Position numbers and translations under genes: made by a program. The notes under the pieces are model-generated. The model had not been told where the DNA came from, ran no database searches, and saw nothing but the letters and a program-made list of their open reading frames with translations. Shown here piece after piece: positions 40,525-49,261 of a stretch of DNA of 55,854 nt. Origin of the DNA: Tychonema sp. LEGE 07203 (GTDB lineage: Bacteria; Cyanobacteriota; Cyanobacteriia; Cyanobacteriales; Microcoleaceae); NCBI RefSeq assembly GCF_015207285.1, contig NZ_JADEXD010000017.1, positions 1 through 55,854 on the forward strand, given 5' to 3'. Numbering within the stretch: the first letter of the stretch is position 1; every line of letters begins with the position of its first letter.

Positions 40525-41721
40525 ATGGCAACAGCTATTCTCGACCTGGAAATCTCCAAACTCCCGCCAGAAATTGCGGTTGAGGAACGTTACAGCAAAG
40601 CCTTGGTTTTAATTAGACTGCACGGAAAGCCGATCGCGAGCGCTCAAGTTTCGGTAGTCGGAGGTCGCATTGAGGGCTCTCAATTGCGGGAAACACTGAT
40701 GGATGCTGCGGGGGATAACCTTTGGAAAAACTGGCTCTACGACACTCTAGAATGGGATGAGCGGGGGCCGATGGAGGCATTGCCGATCGCCACTGTAGCG
40801 GTTTGCACGCGCGATCGACCGGAAGATTTGCAGCGCTGTTTGGAAGCGTTCATGCAGCTCCCAGACGACGGTCAGGAATACTTGGTAATTGACAATTGTC
40901 CCGCCACGGACGCTACTGAGGAATTGGTCAAAAATTACCCAACAGTCCGCTATGTACGCGAGGATGTACCGGGTTCCAGCGCTGCCCGCAACCGAGCTTT
41001 ACGCGAAGCTAAACACGAATTCGTAGCATTTACAGATGACGATGCAGTGCCAGATCCGAACTGGCTGCGATCGCTCTTGCGAAATTTCAGCGATCGGCGG
41101 GTGATGTGCGTTACGGGGCTAATCATGCCCTTGGAACTCGAAACAGAAGCGCAAGAATGGTTCGAGCGCTACAGCCCCCACGGGCGGGGCTTTGAACGCC
41201 GAATTTTTGACGGGGCGCAGTGCAACCCGCTGATAGTCTCTCCGGTGGGTGTTTCGGCGAGTATGGCTTTACGCAAAAGCTCGATCGACTTTATTGGATT
41301 GTTTGACGAAGTTCTGGGGGCGGGAACCCCAACAGTCGGCGGCGAAGACTGCGAACTCTTTGCCCGCATTTTGCGCGCCGGCTACTGCATCGTCTACGAG
41401 CCCAGAGCATTGAGCTGGCACCGCCACCGCCGTACTTGGGAAGAATTGCAAAAAACGCTCCACGGCTACGGCATCGGAGTCTATGCTTTCTGGACGCGGA
41501 TGTTTGTCATCAACAGAGAATTCAGTGTGCCTCGGTTAGCTTTGGGATGGCTGCTACACAAACAAATTCCTGAATTAGTGGCTTCTTTGCGGCAGCAACC
41601 GGATGCGATTCCGAAGGATTTGCTGTTAGCTCAACTGCGGGGCTGTGTCAGGGGGCCGATGGCTTATTTTGCTTCTAGGAAGTGGTTACAAGCTTTTAAG
41701 GAAGAAGTCAGTAGTCATTAG
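40525..41721 (+). CDS. GT2-type glycosyltransferase with N-terminal novel module
   Basis: A 398-residue protein. The GT-A core begins near residue 88 (IATVAVCTRDRPEDLQRCLE), carries VPGSSAARNRALREA and the nucleotide-sugar/metal motif FTDDDAVPD with Asp171-173, and has GGEDCELFARILRAGY as acceptor-side motif. Residues 26-76 (ALVLIRLHGKPIASAQVSVV, then GGRIEGSQLRETLMDA) match a module also found in two downstream proteins. There is no signal peptide or membrane helix, so it is a cytoplasmic or membrane-peripheral sugar transferase. It opens the glycan/export cluster. Sugar and acceptor are unknown. Confidence 0.88.
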   Translation: MATAILDLEISKLPPEIAVEERYSKALVLIRLHGKPIASAQVSVVGGRIEGSQLRETLMDAAGDNLWKNWLYDTLEWDERGPMEALPIATVAVCTRDRPEDLQRCLEAFMQLPDDGQEYLVIDNCPATDATEELVKNYPTVRYVREDVPGSSAARNRALREAKHEFVAFTDDDAVPDPNWLRSLLRNFSDRRVMCVTGLIMPLELETEAQEWFERYSPHGRGFERRIFDGAQCNPLIVSPVGVSASMALRKSSIDFIGLFDEVLGAGTPTVGGEDCELFARILRAGYCIVYEPRALSWHRHRRTWEELQKTLHGYGIGVYAFWTRMFVINREFSVPRLALGWLLHKQIPELVASLRQQPDAIPKDLLLAQLRGCVRGPMAYFASRKWLQAFKEEVSSH

Positions 41722-42124
41722 TTAGTAGTCATTAGTCATTAGTCATTAGTCATTAGCCGGAGGGAAGAAGTCATTAGTCATTAGTCATTAGTCATTAGCC
41801 GGAGGGAAGAAGTCGGAGGAAAGAGTGTTTAAAATTACCAATTACCAATTATTTTTAGTCAGAACACGGAAGTCACGCATACACGGAAAACTGTTTTTTC
41901 CTCTTTCTTCTTTCTTATTTTTGCTGAATAACAACCAACAACTAAAACAATCCTTGCAGGAGTCGTAAACTTTTTACCCCACCCCAACCCTCCCCTTGCC
42001 AAGGGGAGGGAGTAAGAAATTCAACAATGATTTAGGATTGCTATAACAACTCACAACTCACAACTCACAACTCACAACTCACAACTCACAACTAATTGCC
42101 AATTCCCAATTCCCAATTCCCAAT
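41716..42124. repeat. STRR-rich spacer between the two glycosyltransferases
   Basis: TCATTAG heptamers recur about nine times (41712-41805) in two blocks separated by a repeated AGCCGGAGGGAAGAAGTC unit. A perfect hairpin CCTCCCCTTG/CCAAGGGGAGG lies at 41987-42008. Six copies of CTCACAA (42050-42092) and AATTCCC copies then lead directly into the ATG. Confidence 0.85.
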
Positions 42125-43474
42125 ATGAATAGAGAAAATCCAACTGTTAGCGTAATTATTCCCAGTCACAATCGCAGTTTTTCGCTGCGGCGGGCTCTGG
42201 ATGCTTTGCACTCGCAGACTTATCCGATCGACCTAATGGAAGTTATTGTAGTTGCAGATAGCTGCATTGACGATACTTTGGCAATGCTCCAAGACTACAA
42301 AGCTCCGTTTAAATTGCAGGTTGTTGAGGTAAATTGCCGGAGTGCTGCCATCGCTCGCAATACGGGAGCGGCTTCGGCTAGCGGGGAATTGCTGCTGTTT
42401 CTCGATGACGATATCGAAGCGCTGCCTTCTTTGGTGGAAAGCCACGCGCGGGTTCACCGAGAGCGTCCGGGCTGTGCTGTCATGGGCCCTTATCCGCCAA
42501 AGTTGCAGGGAGAAACTAGATTTTTTGGCGTAGAAGTGCGCTCGTGGTGGGAAGACAAGTTTTATCAGATGAGCCAGCCGACTCACCGATTTACTTATCA
42601 AGATTTGCTCAGCGGCAACCTTTCTTTGGATGCAGAAATGTTTGCTCATCTTGATGGCTTCGATTCGGCTTTCGGGAATTGTGGCGGGGAAGATTACGAG
42701 TTTGGGGTGCGTTTGCTGAAAGCTGATGTACCTTTTGCTGTAGCGGCTGATGCTGTTGGCTATCATTACGAACATGAAACTAACAATCTCGATCGCTCTT
42801 TTCGCCGCGCTCGTCAGGAAGGGCGATCGGATGTTTTGATCGGTCAGCGGCACCCGGAAATGAGACCGACGCTGCACATCAAAGACTACGAAACTCCTGA
42901 TTCTCTGGTAAATAAAATTTTGGTTGCGATCGTATTTTTCTGGCCTGCCGCCTTGGATTTGCTGGCTGTCGGACTGAGAAAATCCCTTGACTGGCTTCAA
43001 TACATGGGGATGCGGGGAACTTGGCGGTGGTTGCAGACTAAACTACTGGCTTACTCGTACTTGCGGGGTGTTATCGATGAGTTGAAAAGTCGATCGGCTC
43101 TTTCTCGTTTTATGCAAGAAGGAATGGCTAGCGGCGATTTGGGCAGACATGAAATTGAAATCGATTTGCAGGAAGGTTGGGAAGCAGCAGAACGAATTAT
43201 TGATCGGAAAAAACCCGATGGCATTTATCTGCGTTACGGTGAACAGTCGATCGGTCACGTCACTCCCAAATTCGGTGTAGAGCCACTGCGGGGCGCTCAC
43301 TTGCGATCGATTCTGGCGCTTGACTTTGCCGAACCTCTGGCTCGGGCGATCGCGGTTAACGGTATGCCCAAAAGTGCTGCTCATTCTGAGCCTAGCTTAG
43401 TTGACAACACCCTACTTCAACATCTACAGTTATTTACAGTATTGGACAAAAAAAAGCTGGAAAATGTAGTCTAG
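42125..43474 (+). CDS. GT2-type glycosyltransferase with C-terminal novel module
   Basis: A 449-residue protein. The GT-A domain spans about 8-270: VSVIIPSHNRSFSLRRALDA, AAIARNTGAA, and LLLFLDDDIEALP with Asp94-96, followed by the GGEDYEFGVRLLKA motif. After a linker, residues 365-411 (DGIYLRYGEQSIGHVTPKFG, then LRGAHLRSILALDFAEPLAR) resemble the module in the first glycosyltransferase and in the sulfotransferase-NodB protein. Hydrophobic ILVAIVFFWPAALDLLAVGL (about 264-284) may touch the membrane. It probably adds a sugar to the exported glycan. It is preceded by AATTCCC repeats rather than a ribosome site. Confidence 0.87.
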   Translation: MNRENPTVSVIIPSHNRSFSLRRALDALHSQTYPIDLMEVIVVADSCIDDTLAMLQDYKAPFKLQVVEVNCRSAAIARNTGAASASGELLLFLDDDIEALPSLVESHARVHRERPGCAVMGPYPPKLQGETRFFGVEVRSWWEDKFYQMSQPTHRFTYQDLLSGNLSLDAEMFAHLDGFDSAFGNCGGEDYEFGVRLLKADVPFAVAADAVGYHYEHETNNLDRSFRRARQEGRSDVLIGQRHPEMRPTLHIKDYETPDSLVNKILVAIVFFWPAALDLLAVGLRKSLDWLQYMGMRGTWRWLQTKLLAYSYLRGVIDELKSRSALSRFMQEGMASGDLGRHEIEIDLQEGWEAAERIIDRKKPDGIYLRYGEQSIGHVTPKFGVEPLRGAHLRSILALDFAEPLARAIAVNGMPKSAAHSEPSLVDNTLLQHLQLFTVLDKKKLENVV

Positions 43475-43689
43475 AAATGACATAATTAGATCATCTAAAT
43501 AATAGAATATATAGCCTTTAGATATCTCATAGGAGGTACTATCCGGCATCGGGCATCGGGCCGAAGAGCATCGGGCATCGGGCCTAAAAGCATACCTCAA
43601 TTTTTTGAGAACCGCTATAGAGGTGTAATTAAGTAAGCCTTTAATTGCTCGGCAATAGTAATTTAGAGTAAAAAAAATAGAAATTGACA

Positions 43690-43842
43690 ATGGTAATTAT
43701 GGCAATAGAATTGAATAAAGCTAATTTTTTAGAACCAATTCCTGATAAGTTGAACCTGGTGCAGACCCAGAATTTGGTTGAGATTCAGCCGGGTAATTTA
43801 TCCGGGCGAGAACCTCAGATAGTTGCTGGGGGTGTGCTGTGA
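43690..43842 (+). CDS. 50-residue ORF overlapping the Wzm-type permease start
   Basis: ATG GTA ATT ATG opens a 50-codon frame whose TGA overlaps the GTG start of the permease (GTGA). Its residues (MAIELNKANFLEPIPDKLNL and onward) are free of low complexity, with no membrane segment or known motif. The GTGA overlap suggests translational coupling to the permease. It may be a genuine small protein or a leader peptide. A second ATG lies three codons in. Confidence 0.5.
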   Translation: MVIMAIELNKANFLEPIPDKLNLVQTQNLVEIQPGNLSGREPQIVAGGVL

Positions 43843-44630
43843 GAAATGCGAGAAAGGTAGCTTACATTCGCCAAATCACTCATTTCTTTGATTTGCTACG
43901 GGTATTGGTCGATCGCGATATGAAATTACTTTACAAGCGATCGACCTTGGGGATTGCTTGGACTTTAATCAGTCCGCTGTTACAGTTGGCTGTATTTTCC
44001 TTTTTGTTTCGCTCTGTCGTAGCGCTTAACATTCCCAAATTTTCTTCCTTTGTTTTCAGCGGCTTGTTAATTTGGAGTTGGTCTCAAACGGCCTTATTTA
44101 AATCAACGGGATTAATTACCACTAATAAGGCACTAATCAGGCAGCCAAATTTCCCCACGGCAATTTTGCCGGTAGTCACGACGATGACTGGGCTAATTCA
44201 CTTTGTGTTAGCTTTGCCGGTGTTAATTATCTTTCTGCTAATTGATGGTGTTCGTCTAAATTCAGTGCTACTTTTGTTGCCGCTGCTGATGATTATTCAG
44301 TTTGTTTTGACAGTTAGTTTTGCTTATCCCCTTGCAGCTTTGAATGTCACTTTTCGCGACACTCAACACACTTTGGGAGTCGTGTTGCAGATGATGTTTT
44401 ACCTGACTCCGATTTTCTACGACATCAACAGCGTCCCGGAAAAATTCAAGATTTTTTATTACTTAAATCCAATGGTGCCGCTGATTGAAGCTTACCGCGC
44501 CATACTGCTCAAAGGTATGCAGCCGGATTGGCAGGCTCTGTTAGTTTTGAGCTTGGCTGTGGCGGTTCTTTTGCCTATCGGACTGGGAATTTTTAGACGG
44601 CAAAGCGATCATTTTGTGGAGGAATTGTAA
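43839..44630 (+). CDS. ABC-2 type polysaccharide export permease (Wzm-like)
   Basis: A 263-residue integral membrane protein with about six helices. An amphipathic N-terminus (VLVDRDMKLLYKRSTLGIAW) is typical of the Wzm/TagG/KpsM group, and the C-terminal MMFYLTPIFYDINSVPEKFK, then YYLNPMVPLIEAYRAILLKG is a hallmark of lipid-linked glycan exporters. It pairs with the ATPase encoded by the next gene, whose ATG directly abuts this stop (TAAATG). Together they should flip a finished glycan across the cytoplasmic membrane. GTG start. Confidence 0.92.
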   Translation: MRNARKVAYIRQITHFFDLLRVLVDRDMKLLYKRSTLGIAWTLISPLLQLAVFSFLFRSVVALNIPKFSSFVFSGLLIWSWSQTALFKSTGLITTNKALIRQPNFPTAILPVVTTMTGLIHFVLALPVLIIFLLIDGVRLNSVLLLLPLLMIIQFVLTVSFAYPLAALNVTFRDTQHTLGVVLQMMFYLTPIFYDINSVPEKFKIFYYLNPMVPLIEAYRAILLKGMQPDWQALLVLSLAVAVLLPIGLGIFRRQSDHFVEEL

Positions 44631-46703
44631 ATGCGAGAAGCAATTATTGTCAAGGGTTTGGGCAAGCGTTTTAACCGCTACTCTGCCGCGAAACCTTATA
44701 CGATTATGGAGGCAGCTTTGTCCGGTTGGTGGAAGCTGAAGCCGGAGGCGAGTTTTTGGGCGCTGCGGAATATAAATTTTACTGTTTATCCTGGGGAAAT
44801 GCTGGGAATTCTTGGCAAGAATGGGGCGGGAAAATCAACGCTGCTGCAACTTGTCGGCGGGATTGGTAAGGCAGAGGAAGGAACTATTAAAATTAACGGC
44901 AGAATCGGCGGTTTGTTAGATTTGGGTGCGGGTTTTCACACGGATCTAACAGGCAGAGAAAACGTGTTTGTGGGTGCTGTGGTGGCCGGTTTGACTAGCC
45001 GAGAAGTGGCGCGCAGGTTTGACGATATTGTGGAATTTGCCGAGTTAAAAAAGTTTATTGATAGCCCGATGCGGACTTACAGTACGGGGATGAAAATGCG
45101 GCTGGCTTTTTCGGTGGCGGTGCATACCGATCCAGAAGTGCTGTTAGTTGATGAACATTTGTCAGTTGGTGATGTGGCTTTTCAAACTAAATGTTTGAAC
45201 AAGATAACTGAGTTTAAAAATCAAGGATGTGCGATTGTTTTGATTTCTCACACTGCGTCGCAAATTCAGAAAATGTGCGATCGGGCTTTGTGGCTGAAAT
45301 CAGGTGAAATCGTGGCCTACGGGGAACCGGAAGTAGTAGTCGGTCAGTATTTGTCAGAAATGCGATCGCCCACAGAAAATCGCACTCCCCTGGGCGGTAC
45401 TGAAGCTACAAGTAGCGGCTCGCCACTGCGAGGCAATCAGAATCGATTTGGTTCTTTGGAAGTAGAAATTACCGATGTTAAAGTATTTCCGAATGCCGAA
45501 ATAAATAGCGGCGATGCGATTAGCATTGAAATCCATTATTCGGTATCTCAGGAAATTTCTGCTGCTATTTTTGCCGTGACAATCAGCAGGGATGATGGTC
45601 AAAGTTGTTTTGAGACTAATACTAATCAAATGGGCAAACTGCTGCCGCTCGTGAAAGGGCAAGGCAAAATCCGGCTACAAATAGACAGGCTGGATTTAGG
45701 AAACGGTCAGTATTACGTGAATGCTGGGGTTTACGACGAAACTTTGGCTTACGCCTACGATTATCATTGGCAGATTTATCCACTGTACGTGCGATCGACT
45801 GTCAACCAAAAAACGATTCTTTGTCCGCCGTACCGCTGGCAATTTGAGGGCAAAATGCCGCTTCTCGATTTAGCCGAGCCAGCCACTGCAACTTACGATT
45901 TGGATAAGAATAATCCCGCCTACGCCAAGATTTTAACTCAGTTGGAAAACAAGCAAAAACCTGATTTTTTAATAATTGGTGCTCAAAACTGCGGCACGGA
46001 ATCTCTATACAGCTATCTCGCAAATCACTTGCAAATTATCAAAGAAGGTTCGCGGGACATTCACTTTTTTGAATTAAATTTCGAGCGCGGTGTTGAGTGG
46101 TACAGCAAGCAGTTGACGCGGAGTGTAGCGAGTGAGAAAGTGTTCCTGTGGGAGATGACTGCTTACTATATTTATCATCCCTTGGTAGCGGAGCGAGTTT
46201 ACAAGTGTTTCCCGGATATTAAGCTGATTGTAATGCTGCGAAATCCGGTAAAACGAGCGTGGATGCACTATCATTTAGAAGTGGCGAACGGCTGCGAAAA
46301 ATTAGATTTTGAAAAGGCGATCGCCTCCGAGGGCGATCGGCTAAAAGGTGAAATTAAAAAAATCAAAGCCGATGAAAATTATTACAGTTTCAATCACCAG
46401 CACTATTCCTATTTGTCGCGGGGAATTTATGTAGAACAAATCAAAAACTGGCTCGACTATTTTCCGAGAGAACAATTGCTAATTATCAAAAGCGAAGATT
46501 TTTACGCGCAGACAGGCAAAGTATTTTCCGAAGTATTGAAATTTCTGGATATTAGTGAAAGTACAAGTAAAGAATATGAAATCAATCATGTCGATGAATA
46601 CAGCCAAATGCCACCAGAAATCGCACAAGAATTGACTAACTACTTCAAACCTTATAATCAGGAACTTTCGGACTTGTTGCACGAGGATTTTAGTTGGAGT
46701 TAG
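44631..46703 (+). CDS. Wzt-like ABC ATPase fused to a sulfotransferase domain
   Basis: A 690-residue fusion. Residues 1-240 are an ABC ATPase: Walker A GKNGAGKST (62-70), signature YSTGMKMRLAF (from about 150) and Walker B VLLVDE (near 170). Residues about 270-430 resemble the Wzt C-terminal glycan-recognition beta-sandwich. From 444 a sulfotransferase domain follows: PDFLIIGAQNCGTESLYSYL, IHFFELN, VMLRNPVKRAWMHYH, YLSRGIYVEQIKNWL. In the usual PAPS 5'-phosphosulfate loop (QKxGTTSL) the lysine is Asn453 and a Thr is Glu457. The 3'-phosphate motif has Met545 where Ser is expected. The domain may be inactive or a glycan reader. Fusing export and sulfation domains is unusual. Confidence 0.88.
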   Translation: MREAIIVKGLGKRFNRYSAAKPYTIMEAALSGWWKLKPEASFWALRNINFTVYPGEMLGILGKNGAGKSTLLQLVGGIGKAEEGTIKINGRIGGLLDLGAGFHTDLTGRENVFVGAVVAGLTSREVARRFDDIVEFAELKKFIDSPMRTYSTGMKMRLAFSVAVHTDPEVLLVDEHLSVGDVAFQTKCLNKITEFKNQGCAIVLISHTASQIQKMCDRALWLKSGEIVAYGEPEVVVGQYLSEMRSPTENRTPLGGTEATSSGSPLRGNQNRFGSLEVEITDVKVFPNAEINSGDAISIEIHYSVSQEISAAIFAVTISRDDGQSCFETNTNQMGKLLPLVKGQGKIRLQIDRLDLGNGQYYVNAGVYDETLAYAYDYHWQIYPLYVRSTVNQKTILCPPYRWQFEGKMPLLDLAEPATATYDLDKNNPAYAKILTQLENKQKPDFLIIGAQNCGTESLYSYLANHLQIIKEGSRDIHFFELNFERGVEWYSKQLTRSVASEKVFLWEMTAYYIYHPLVAERVYKCFPDIKLIVMLRNPVKRAWMHYHLEVANGCEKLDFEKAIASEGDRLKGEIKKIKADENYYSFNHQHYSYLSRGIYVEQIKNWLDYFPREQLLIIKSEDFYAQTGKVFSEVLKFLDISESTSKEYEINHVDEYSQMPPEIAQELTNYFKPYNQELSDLLHEDFSWS

Positions 46704-46837
46704 GAAAAAAGTTTTTAACCGCAGACATCCCAGAGAAGAACATCAATCATACCTCTTTCTTCTCTTCCTCTGCGCCCTCTGCGCTCTCTGCGGTTCGTAA
46801 AAAAATCTAATTCACAAACCCTTTATTAGCTATAAAA

Positions 46838-49261
46838 ATGAAACGGATATTTTTAATAGGCTCTCCGAGAAGCGGCACAACCATGCTTCAAAGTTTATTA
46901 GCTGCCCATCCTGAAGTTATCTCTTTTCCTGAATCTAAGTTTTTTCACTATTTACTGTACAAGAAGTTTGCGGGAAAGTTGCCAGGTAGGATGGAAGCTT
47001 TTTTTAAAAATGAGATTAATCGTCCTGAACTTTTGCAAAGTTTTGATGACAGTCAAACTGCAGGCACTAAAGTTAGTTGGTTTGCAGGAGTTTTGGATGG
47101 TTTGGCTGCGGAACAAAACAAAAGCATTTGGTTGGAAAAAACGCCGGAACATATATATTTTATTGATGACATAGAGCGATTTTTACCGGATGCGAAATTC
47201 ATACATATTTTGCGAAACGGTATGGATACAATAGCTTCTCTGCATGAGGCTACTAGGAATTCTCATGATTTGTGGGGGCCAGGTTGGGATTTAAACCACT
47301 GTATCCATCGCTGGAAGGAGGCGACGTTAATTAGTCACAAATATGCTAAAAAGTCTAATCATATATTAGTCAAGTATGAGGAAGTTGTCGATAACAAAGT
47401 CAAAAGATTAGAAGAACTTTGTCACTTTATGGGGGTTGAATATGACGGAAAAATGCTGGAGTTTTATCAAGAAAAAGCAGCTAGTCTCAGTTTAAATTTA
47501 CCTTGGCACCAAGGAATTGAGAGAGAGGTTAAAAGTAGTAATGTTCACAAACATCATAAAATTTTTACGAACAATGAAATTAAAGATATTTTAGATAAAA
47601 TTAAGCGAGTCAAGGGTGAAATTGCCTGGAAAGTTACGGTAGAAGTGAGCGAACCAATTTCGGATATTTACACTTTGCAAATATACGATCGCCTGCACTG
47701 TACAATTCAATTAGAAGGCATTAAACTCGGTGTTGTGGAATTGCCAGTCTGCGACGGGATTGTGGCGGGTGCGGTGTTGGCGGATGCGATCGCAGCCCAG
47801 TTGGCTTGGCAAATTCTCGATCGCTACTTTCAACGCAATCGCTGCGAAAAAGGTAATAGATTGTGGGAAACTTTGCTGCAACCATTCCACAAGAAAAATG
47901 ACTGGAGGCTATTTTTGCAAGAATTATGGGGGCGTTTGCATTGGCATTTGGATGATTTCTACAAGCCAGAAATAGCCGAAGAAGTCCCAACAATTACGCT
48001 CGAAAAAGATTTAATTGCTGTAGAAGTTAGCGAAGAATTACCTAATATAAAAGTTGAGCTTTCTGAAATTGACGTGCTGGTGAAAGTCGGCGGTGTTGCT
48101 GTCGGTATTGTCACGGTTGCGGTGGAAAATAATTTTGTTTCTGCTCAAAAATTGCGATCGACAATTACTCAAAATAGCGGTTTTGAATTGTGCGTCGCCG
48201 CCGTGCGAGAAGCTTTGCTGGGAAAACCGCTCGACGGCAAGCAATCGCTGCGATCGCGCTTAGCCGCTGCTGCTCAGCAAAGGTCGAATCAGCCCGAATG
48301 GTTGAATGCAGCGGGTGCTGGGGGCATTTACCCGCCAAATGCAGTGATGTTCGGCAGGCGATCGGGTGCGATCGGCACCAGTATCAGCCGCCGCGCCGCA
48401 CTCCCAGCTGCAGCGCTGCCGGAAATCGCATCAGCAGCAGCAATCGCCGGGGAAACAACAATGAAAATGCCCCAAGAAAACGAGCTACCAAAACAAGTAT
48501 TTTATGCACCGGAAATCATTGGCTCAAAATCTTCTTATCGAGAACCTTCTCACTCGCTGAAACCTCAATTTTCCGAGAATCATAGCATTACAAAAAAACT
48601 CCCAATTCTCTCCTACCGCCGCATTTCTCCCGATGGTTTAGACGCAATTACTCCCCAGATTTTTGAACAACAGTTACACAATCTCAAAAATCAGGGTTAT
48701 TACAGTGCAAGTTGGGAAAATTGGCGAAGCGCAAAACAGACTAAAACTCCTCTACCAGGCAAAGCCGTATTGATAACATTTGACGGCGGCTATCTCGACT
48801 TTTTCCAATATGCTTGGCCCTTGCTAAAACGCTATGATTTTACAGCAACTGTTTTTCTAGTAGCCGAGTCGATTGGAAAGACAAATAGTTGGGAAAAAGC
48901 CGAAGGTGAAGAAGTAAACTTAATGGGATGGCCAGAAATTCTGCAACTGCGGGATGCAGGAATTGAATTCGGTTCAATGTCTGCTACTCATCAACCTCTA
49001 ACTGCATTATCGCCCACAGAAATTGTGCGTGAGGGGGTAAAATCCCGCGCTATTTTGGAACTGGAATTAGGGAAATCTGTTAAATGTTTTGCTTATCCTT
49101 ACGGAGATGTCGATAAAACTGTAGAACATTTAATCGGGGCGAGCGGGTATACTTTTGGTGTATCGTATAGGTCAAACTTTAGCAGCTTAGACGATTCTTT
49201 AATGTCGCTACCCCGCATTCAAATTACAAAGGAAAGCCCCTTAAAACTAGGTTCGCAGTGA
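46838..49261 (+). CDS. Sulfotransferase - repeated module - NodB deacetylase-fold fusion
   Basis: An 807-residue three-part protein. Residues 1-260 are a sulfotransferase with a canonical PAPS loop, GSPRSGTTML (8-17), and KFIHILRNGMDTIASL as 3'-phosphate motif. Two copies of the unnamed module follow (about 285-331, CTIQLEGIKLGVVELPVCDG; about 412-462, VLVKVGGVAVGIVTVAVENN). After a linker, a NodB fold spans about 585-800. Its metal triad looks broken: TFDGG (D649, G650) replaces TFDDG, and GSMSATH has Met714 for the first His while H718 remains. AYPYGD is kept. No signal peptide, so action on a cytoplasmic glycan intermediate is likely. Confidence 0.86.
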   Translation: MKRIFLIGSPRSGTTMLQSLLAAHPEVISFPESKFFHYLLYKKFAGKLPGRMEAFFKNEINRPELLQSFDDSQTAGTKVSWFAGVLDGLAAEQNKSIWLEKTPEHIYFIDDIERFLPDAKFIHILRNGMDTIASLHEATRNSHDLWGPGWDLNHCIHRWKEATLISHKYAKKSNHILVKYEEVVDNKVKRLEELCHFMGVEYDGKMLEFYQEKAASLSLNLPWHQGIEREVKSSNVHKHHKIFTNNEIKDILDKIKRVKGEIAWKVTVEVSEPISDIYTLQIYDRLHCTIQLEGIKLGVVELPVCDGIVAGAVLADAIAAQLAWQILDRYFQRNRCEKGNRLWETLLQPFHKKNDWRLFLQELWGRLHWHLDDFYKPEIAEEVPTITLEKDLIAVEVSEELPNIKVELSEIDVLVKVGGVAVGIVTVAVENNFVSAQKLRSTITQNSGFELCVAAVREALLGKPLDGKQSLRSRLAAAAQQRSNQPEWLNAAGAGGIYPPNAVMFGRRSGAIGTSISRRAALPAAALPEIASAAAIAGETTMKMPQENELPKQVFYAPEIIGSKSSYREPSHSLKPQFSENHSITKKLPILSYRRISPDGLDAITPQIFEQQLHNLKNQGYYSASWENWRSAKQTKTPLPGKAVLITFDGGYLDFFQYAWPLLKRYDFTATVFLVAESIGKTNSWEKAEGEEVNLMGWPEILQLRDAGIEFGSMSATHQPLTALSPTEIVREGVKSRAILELELGKSVKCFAYPYGDVDKTVEHLIGASGYTFGVSYRSNFSSLDDSLMSLPRIQITKESPLKLGSQ

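Follow-up and report, generated by a model that had tools for sequence, protein, structure and literature searches.

The Glycan Cluster of the Window

The window, i.e., the whole stretch of DNA analysed here, comprises positions 1 to 55,854 of contig NZ_JADEXD010000017.1 of Tychonema sp. LEGE 07203, read on the forward strand, and all the features described below lie on the + strand. Two genes encode GT2 glycosyltransferases (GTs), one at 40525..41721 (398 aa; PF00535, E 3.1e-23 at residues 90-254) and one at 42125..43474 (449 aa; PF00535, E 1.9e-19 at 9-134); both proteins exceed the curated PF00535 cut-off (83 and 70.6 bits vs. 23.3) and carry a DDD motif (FTDDD and FLDDD). Downstream lie a Wzm-type ABC-2 permease (43839..44630; PF01061, E 4.7e-20) and a Wzt-type ATPase (44631..46703) in which Pfam recognizes, besides the ATPase domain (PF00005, E 5.8e-21), Wzt_C (PF14524, E 9.6e-23) and a fused C-terminal sulfotransferase domain (PF00685, E 1.4e-13 at 444-647). 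The next protein (46838..49261, 807 aa) joins a sulfotransferase domain (PF13469 at 4-203), containing the motif PRSGTT, which we take to be the PAPS loop, to a C-terminal NodB-like domain (PF01522 at 638-773). A third module-bearing GT (GTC), which 19 of the loci fetched from the genus contain, is absent from the window apart from a possible C-terminal remnant directly before the permease (43735..43836), a weak tblastn match (38% identity, E 0.35) to residues 382-415 of the GTC of locus L093.

An earlier note on this DNA had pointed to an unnamed module of roughly 50 residues recurring four times in three of these proteins. The four segments were found where it had placed them, the first GT having LVLIRLHG at residue 27, the second IYLRYGEQ at 367, and the sulfotransferase-NodB protein both CTIQLEG (288) and VLVKVGG (413). 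Its size has to be revised, as the unit spans about 70 residues once an N-terminal strand some 20-25 residues upstream is included. We call the copies M1 (residues 4-75 of the first GT, 40534..40749), M2 (C-terminal in the second GT, about residues 343-410, 43151..43354), M3 and M4 (in tandem, 47633..47839 and 48011..48217). M4 is followed by a segment, X (48245..48562), in which alignments show GRRxGxxGTSxSRRAxLP in most orthologues; X is perhaps disordered, to judge from the low-confidence prediction (pLDDT blocks of about 25-56 from X onward in the model of the tandem protein region).

The NodB-like domain (48749..49156) matches PF01522 (80.2 bits vs. a cut-off of 23.1), but its metal site calls for a correction of the NodB label. 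CE4/NodB enzymes bind their metal through D-H-H ligands, in TFDD and a two-histidine motif; the window domain reads TFDGG and SMSATH. Among 31 proteins of the genus, TFDG is found in 27 of the 27 that are readable there, and the first metal histidine is lost in 20 of 20 readable ones. The site is intact in the proteins of L153 and L081 and in a one-copy protein (L194). Without its ligands, the window domain is unlikely to N-deacetylate and, judging from these motifs, probably has no deacetylase activity.

Homology of the Four Copies

Single sequences relate three of the copies (M1-M4, z 5.8; M3-M4, z 4.8; M1-M3, z 2.95, p 0.019) and leave the three M2 pairs at chance level (p 0.25-0.66). Profiles of genus orthologues, compared pairwise, gave 67% for M1-M4, 63% for M3-M4, 20% for M1-M3, and less than 5% for M2 pairs. 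We then compared each copy, represented by 25-30 orthologous sequences, by hhalign with a family profile that excluded the segment's own type: M1 reached 99.3%, M2 89.3% (E 2e-6; 87, 93, and 89% against the different family profiles), M3 98.8%, and M4 97.5%. None of 100 column shuffles per copy attained the observed score, no slice outside the modules rose above 1% in a scan of the same proteins, and the alignments are collinear over about 70 columns.

One has to keep in mind that a false positive, the GAF region of a histidine kinase (L148), had entered the profile. The five type-vs-family comparisons were rerun without it, the shuffles being those of the original set, and the results for M1-M4 hardly changed; the tree, the Wzm count over 69 loci, the window scan, and the NodB motif counts include L148 or a profile trained with it. 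In that six-frame HMM scan of the window, M1 (E 9.8e-25), M3 (E 3e-23), and M4 (E 5e-21) were strong and M2, as a single sequence, was marginal (E 0.44; E 0.71 in a separate HMM search), with no further match better than E 1. M2 is likewise the weakest copy in plain HMM searches: of 26 orthologues of the second GT, one profile picked it up in just 5 with an E of 1 or less (best, 0.044) and a wider profile in 1. With this reservation for M2, profile-profile similarity (89-99%) bears out the recurrence in three proteins of the cluster, and sequence comparison confirms that the four segments are homologous copies of one domain.

Predicted Structure and Novelty

The models of M1, M3, and M4 predict the same order of strands and helix: E3-9, E16-18, E25-32, E35-43, E48-50, H51-62, and H64-74 for M1; E6-12, E28-35, E38-46, and H54-80 for M3 (pLDDT blocks 70-94); and E135-139, E146-149, E153-160, E163-171, and H179-203 for M4 (72-91). 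The first GT was modelled as one compact chain including M1 (pLDDT 94.5, pTM 0.92), and this pTM suggests that M1 is firmly packed on its own GT. In the alignment, conservation falls on E/D in strand 1 and on R, G, and P of the hairpin, positions that seem to serve the structure. An aromatic residue occurs in at least 40% of the members at one family column only (column 20, 68%), so that we see no evident conserved platform for sugar stacking.

The earlier note knew no established name for the module, and indeed no Pfam or NCBIfam model covers it among the proteins scanned. A sequence search of the PDB with the module profile gave a best E of 0.12; with a module+GT profile, 40 PDB sequences matched, all from profile position 53 or later. 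Foldseek found no match at E 0.001 for the tandem model, in which 103 of the 318 residues have a pLDDT below 50, and matched the whole-GT model to GT enzymes, the aligned part of the query not being given; a viral structure library likewise gave no match at E 0.001. Our searches of openly licensed full texts listed no description of the module, and the available portion of a paper on an Actinoplanes cluster (PMC13390465) does not mention such a module. It is most likely an undescribed accessory domain of glycan-building and glycan-decorating enzymes.

Distribution, Tandem Copies, and Partner Enzymes

With a GT2-containing query, the module was found in 53 of 80 fetched loci, from at least eight phyla according to the record names; our ORF set holds 241 modules in 180 ORFs (240 in 179 without L148). 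Among 386 cyanobacterial genomes searched, 22 had matches, and 20 of these had at least two. Each of the 20 carries its matches on one contig, within 15 kb in 19 of them (G177 has two groups), and in G037, G048, and G398 both copies lie inside one protein. Only half of the eight Actinobacterial genomes with matches were trusted (G424, G443, G464, and G518): the ORFs of L272, L274, and L278 look like wrong frames, L275 scored E 0.0097, and a rescan of L276 found no match.

A Wzm homologue accompanies the module in 25 of 69 loci. The other 44, some of whose fetched stretches are short, include L140-L147, the Rhizobium and Ensifer plasmids, and every Actinobacterial locus of the 69, and the module is thus not tied to Wzm/Wzt. 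The order module-GT, Wzm, Wzt, tandem protein is found in the window, L153, and L134, and the order Wzm, Wzt, tandem protein in L135.

The tandem occurs in proteins of varied make-up: sulfotransferase-NodB (window, L135), GT2-NodB (L133), GT2-methyltransferase (L134, truncated where the fetched stretch ends), GT2-methyltransferase-NodB (L153, L081), and methyltransferase-NodB (L215, Brocadia). The placement at the N-terminus, at the C-terminus, or in tandem in different enzymes was rightly recognized from the window, the C-terminal copy M2 being the weaker case. In a tree of 154 modules (from 229 before redundancy filtering), all 21 M3 fall in one clade (support 0.998) and all 14 M4 in another (support 1.0); as M3 and M4 keep to separate clades whether they accompany a sulfotransferase, a GT2, or a methyltransferase, the tandem is older than its partners. 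Other types also group together: M1 (10/10 in a clade of 10), MC (12/12 in a clade of 13), dual-N (18/18 in a clade of 22), and dual-C (18/18 in a clade of 21).

Possible Function of the Module

The module probably serves structure or docking. Our tentative preference, at somewhat less than even confidence, is an accessory scaffold or docking domain that would keep the enzymes carrying it assembled close to the Wzm/Wzt exporter. Each copy would pack against its own enzyme domain and offer a docking surface, through which the enzymes would be gathered near the exporter; each GT would contribute one copy, and the tandem protein, carrying a sulfotransferase here or another modifying enzyme elsewhere, would act as the organiser. 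We infer the docking role, the physical complex, and its place at the exporter, and the product would be a sulfated, ABC-exported glycan. This view is favoured by the clustering of the copies, by a tandem that is independent of GT2, by an arrangement of genes with Wzm/Wzt that is seen in several phyla, and by the precedent of multiprotein complexes in ABC-dependent O-antigen assembly (excerpt of PMC11231755). Tandem gene duplication would explain the clustering of the GT copies too, and G084 and G205, with one match each among at most 14 scored candidates, a cap that may conceal further copies, count against docking.

Almost as likely is an intramolecular role, in which the module would complete or regulate the GT2 catalytic domain (as an N-terminal cap, or in orienting acceptor or membrane) and the tandem would reuse the same fold as a spacer between two catalytic domains. 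The compact, confident model of the first GT is consistent with it, as are the clades by enzyme type (M1, MC, dual-N, dual-C), which show long co-inheritance with the enzyme. In the genome-contig set, 77 of 89 modules have a DDD/DDA motif as in GT2 within 170 residues downstream, a count biased by the GT2-containing query; a module that usually precedes a GT2-like stretch could equally well belong to the GT as serve in docking. Such a role sits badly, however, with M2 at the C-terminus of the second GT and with a tandem placed between a sulfotransferase or methyltransferase and NodB in proteins without GT2 (window, L135, L215). A module that acts like a CBM, holding on to the growing glycan or the lipid carrier and keeping the chain near successive active sites, seems rather improbable to us: the Pfam-scanned module proteins, except L148, do have glycan-active domains, and avidity would rise with tandem copies, but the conserved positions look structural, there is just the one aromatic column, and Pfam reports no CBM match in the module proteins scanned. 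As for a chance likeness of short strand-turn-strand-helix segments, the M2 pairs at chance level as single sequences and the entry of a GAF domain into the profile would suggest a generic pattern; the shuffles, the collinear alignments, and the GAF family itself, which does not match, make this explanation highly improbable overall and in effect refute it for M1, M3, and M4.

Going beyond the docking domain near the exporter that we prefer, the module might be a widespread recruitment domain, with interlocking copies on GTs, sulfotransferases, methyltransferases, and deacetylases, where modules pairing with one another about a conserved tandem hub would set the order in which enzymes act on the nascent ABC-exported glycan, a logic comparable to that of the docking domains of polyketide assembly lines; we consider this unlikely.

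For many bacterial GT2 enzymes, annotation goes no further than the catalytic domain, and an unnamed domain common to the GTs and tailoring enzymes of one pathway would give a handle on which enzymes work together. It would also help to annotate putative sulfated polysaccharides in cyanobacteria and to test the organisation of ABC-dependent glycan assembly beyond the enterobacterial models.

Comparison with Known Systems

The best NCBIfam match of the first GT is TIGR03965, the mycofactocin glycosyltransferase MftF, which is also a GT2 with a small N-terminal domain; both GT proteins score below its cut-off of 280 bits (129.5 and 79.2 bits). The N-terminal domain of MftF is PqqD-like, and its kinship with the module was rejected (hhalign 1.4%, E 0.038, with a shallow profile of three MftF N-termini). 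NDST, the heparan N-deacetylase/N-sulfotransferase, and the Nod enzymes NodB, NodS, and NodH offer a parallel for a single chain that combines a sulfotransferase or methyltransferase with a NodB-type domain; the window domain differs from them in lacking the metal ligands, and an NDST-like mechanism was dropped on account of the lost site. GAF domains (PF01590) share with the module a hairpin with G-x-x-x-G followed by a helix, and one GAF region matched our first profile; a comparison with the 18 readable loci of 30 fetched led us to reject a kinship (0.33%; score 10.8 vs. a mean of 10.2 and a maximum of 18.6 in 60 shuffles). For the two-GT operon of L140, a link to the Anabaena HEP island genes alr2836/alr2837 was considered. 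This lead was dropped, as the coordinates in PMC2211374 give proteins of about 322-324 residues, not 403-451; the available portion of PMC4390870 merely lists the HEP island.

A close parallel to the docking domain that we favour lies in ABC-dependent O-antigen assembly, for which the excerpt of PMC11231755 describes multiprotein complexes of GT and terminator modules. The WbdD/WbdA-type polymerase-terminator complexes presented there resemble our cluster in their ABC-exporter gene clusters and dual GT proteins, in a multidomain protein with modifying enzymes, and in activities spread over single- and multi-module proteins. Their organiser, according to the same excerpt, is a coiled-coil ruler that bears a recruitment site, whereas here a beta-alpha module, shared by the GTs and the modifying protein, would provide the recruitment.

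Glycan cluster of the window

The glycan cluster at 40.5-49.3 kb encodes a first GT2 glycosyltransferase (398 aa), a second GT2 (449 aa), an ABC-2 permease (Wzm), a Wzt-type ATPase in which Wzt_C is fused to a sulfotransferase domain (44631-46703), and a sulfotransferase/NodB protein of 807 residues, hereafter the tandem protein. The Wzt relatives of the fetched loci L153, L134, L138 and L135 (408-431 aa) gave no sulfotransferase match. One module lies in each GT (M1, M2) and two lie in the tandem protein (M3, M4); a fifth type, MC, is carried by a third GT (GTC), present in 19 fetched genus loci and absent from the window, where a possible 34-residue remnant of its C-terminus lies 5' of the permease (43474-43838; tblastn E 0.35). 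Repeats between the two GT genes (about 41698-41812 and 41942-42125) occur tens of times in the genome, and the stretch 40600-43400 has 71 genomic matches in all, self-match counted.

Homology of the module copies

The four segments lie in the window proteins where the earlier note had placed them. Pfam gave no match overlapping any module in these proteins at E up to 1; in NCBIfam, a TIGR03965 match starting at residue 65 of the first GT touches the edge of M1 (which ends at 75), and a chance-level match to NF005610 (E 0.09; residues 235-285 of the tandem protein) touches that of M3 (start about 266). At the level of individual sequences, the pairs M1-M4 and M3-M4 were above chance, M1-M3 less strongly so, and M2 did not stand out against the other three. 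Searching 59 genomes with M1 returned 33 matches (E ≤ 1.1e-22) in 27 of them, the window's own genome included; every matching genome belongs to the genus, of which 29 genomes were searched. Type profiles built from 30 (M1), 25 (M2), 28 (M3), 27 (M4) and 19 (MC) sequences tied M1, MC and M4 together, with M3 joining less firmly; two of the four M2 pairs (E 0.009 and 0.012) slightly beat the best control (0.021), and the other two (0.099 and 0.15) were no better than it.

In a later test, the family was widened and every type compared with a profile lacking that type, with 100 column-shuffled profiles as control. Probabilities were 99.3% (M1), 89.3% (M2), 98.8% (M3), 97.5% (M4) and 99.5% (MC); observed scores of 32-101 stood against shuffled maxima of 14.8-17.9, and none of the 100 shuffles attained the observed score. 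Removing a false positive from the training set, the GAF domain of L148, left 99.3, 89.2, 98.7, 97.5 and 99.4%, respectively. The recurrence of one module proposed by the earlier note is thus confirmed for M1, M3 and M4 and, with less force, for M2, the weakest member: plain HMM searches with two profiles found M2 at E ≤ 1 in just 5 and 1 of 26 second-GT orthologues, and the module-only profile did not list it in genome G000. The module is, in short, a real accessory domain, nameless in the libraries searched.

Predicted shape and conserved positions

The model of the first GT (41 aligned sequences; pLDDT 94.5, pTM 0.92) predicts for M1 the elements E3-9, E16-18, E25-32, E35-43, E48-50, H51-62 and H64-74, after which comes the GT2 fold. 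The tandem-region model (318 residues, 31 sequences) is only partly reliable (mean pLDDT 63.7, pTM 0.54), with M3 at pLDDT 70-94 and M4 at 72-91; its alignment placed 26 single modules on M3 and covered M4 with five rows, one ending inside it. The predicted M3 and M4 agree with each other and with M1 in strand and helix order. Among 154 modules, L148 included, strand 1 carries E or D in 146, column 28 is R in 81, column 31 G in 112 and column 33 P in 95; column 20 is the sole one aromatic in at least 40%. In the tandem proteins of L085, L087, L089 and L090, about 30 residues, near-identical across the four genomes, are added inside M3 between two strands.

Distribution across bacteria

At E 0.001, the module-only profile matched at least 22 of 386 cyanobacterial genomes, in 14 of 142 genera, a lower bound as at most 14 candidates were scored per genome; an earlier, narrower profile had matched 20 of 386 at E 0.01. 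Among 149 genomes of the phylum to which the Mycobacterium G424 belongs, 8 had matches, and four of these were judged trustworthy. When genome contigs were queried with a GT2-containing sequence and the best 80 of at least 476 relatives taken as loci, 53 of the 80 carried the module at E 0.001; their record titles take in Cyanobacteria, Planctomycetes (Loosdrechtia, Brocadia), Chloroflexi, Verrucomicrobia, Acidobacteria, Ignavibacteria, Alpha- and Gammaproteobacteria and Actinobacteria. The other 27 had no module at this threshold; 20 of them are labelled Streptomyces, which may hold a divergent version, judging from sequence matches of several proteins at E 0.01-1. A GT query matched 158 plasmid records, four of which were read for modules: Rhizobium sp. 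CB3090 carries one in one of two GT genes (E 2e-9) and Ensifer adhaerens another (E 3e-4), Kitasatospora scored E 0.45, and the module profile found none in Phyllobacterium.

Gene neighbourhood and export

Of the 69 module-bearing loci numbered L133 and up (false positive L148 included), 25 contain a homologue of the window's permease at E 1e-8. These 25 represent Cyanobacteria, Planctomycetes, Chloroflexi, Verrucomicrobia, Acidobacteria, Ignavibacteria, Proteobacteria and the unplaced bacterium HR37; two of them (L172, L185) have a window-type cluster. In most of the 25, the permease/Wzt pair adjoins the module GT. L153 and L134 keep the gene order of the window (module-GT, permease, Wzt, tandem protein), and permease, Wzt and tandem protein are neighbours in L135. 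The remaining 44 loci have no permease homologue within the fetched stretch, and the GT pair of L140 lies near an ABC exporter of another type, a GT1, a GT2 and a methyltransferase; the module therefore belongs to glycan synthesis broadly, its tie to Wzm/Wzt being frequent but not exclusive. A Rhizobium plasmid (L149:10098-16491) resembles L140 in having two GT genes after an ABC exporter gene; its first GT is 50.6% identical to the L140 counterpart over its length. For two cyanobacterial MAGs from Shark Bay, PMC9723792 reports stretches of about 20 kb that contain genes for sulfotransferases, GTs and exporters, and cyanobacterial Wzm/Wzt systems are covered in the review PMC4390846.

Architectures and the tandem unit

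Some GTs bear a single N-terminal copy; in dual GTs, which span about 860-910 residues, the order is copy-GT2-copy-GT2, both GT2 stretches having been checked in L137 and L153 and the remaining cases called from two module matches, length and sequence. In the Brocadia MAG (L215:9992-12657), a dual-GT reading frame is apparently broken into several ORFs. Aminobacter (L194) has a GT2-NodB protein with a single copy. The tandem follows an N-terminal enzyme and precedes one or more C-terminal ones: it lies between sulfotransferase and NodB in the window genus and L135, and is combined with GT2 and NodB in L133, with GT2 and a NodS-like methyltransferase in L134 (whose protein runs off the fetched stretch), with GT2, methyltransferase and NodB in L153 and L081, and with methyltransferase and NodB in Brocadia (L215). 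Exactly two modules (E 0.001) were found in 25 of the 32 module-bearing ORFs matching the tandem protein at >400 bits, L081 counted; the 32 include fragments as well as four proteins whose M3 carries an insertion. In a FastTree phylogeny of the 154 modules, M3 (21/21, support 0.998) and M4 (14/14, support 1.0) each form one clade taking in Brocadia, Coleofasciculus and distant cyanobacterial proteins; because each clade spans different partner enzymes, the tandem is a single old unit whose N-terminal enzyme has been exchanged.

Segment X, which follows M4 (48245-48562), has a GRRxGxxGTSxSRR-like motif and a low-confidence structure prediction; the motif is in part common even to Brocadia (L215: GRNTYGLMGTSASRR). 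The tandem proteins of L092, L094 and L097 have a duplicated stretch of about 20 residues ahead of the NodB domain.

The NodB-like domain itself (48749-49156) has lost metal ligands of the TFDD and histidine motifs. Among 31 genus proteins, TFDG replaces TFDD in all 27 that were pattern-readable, and the first histidine is gone in all 20 readable ones. L135 reads TFDGG and SLGTTY, L133 TFDDE and SRSLSH, and L215 TFDNG with both histidines present; the motifs are intact in L153, L081 and the one-copy L194. Since TFDD is altered and the first histidine lost throughout the readable genus proteins, the window domain is probably inactive, which weakens a simple scheme of deacetylation followed by N-sulfation; it may bind sugar in place of catalysis.

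What the module may do

Homology and spread of the module are well supported; its mode of action is not. The earlier note proposed docking or glycan binding. The docking half fits the fusion to several enzymes, the several copies per cluster and the old tandem, and a scaffold or docking part of glycan enzymes is the role that we tentatively put slightly ahead, at somewhat below even chances. Nearly as probable is a role internal to the GT that carries it: the module often sits directly ahead of GT2 and is predicted to be compactly packed on the GT. That the module binds glycan is less likely, the company of glycan enzymes being the sole point in favour of this half of the proposal.

Of the organisations described, the closest to the module cluster is that of ABC-dependent O antigens, whose terminator-polymerase complex divides its activities between single and multi-module proteins (PMC11231755).
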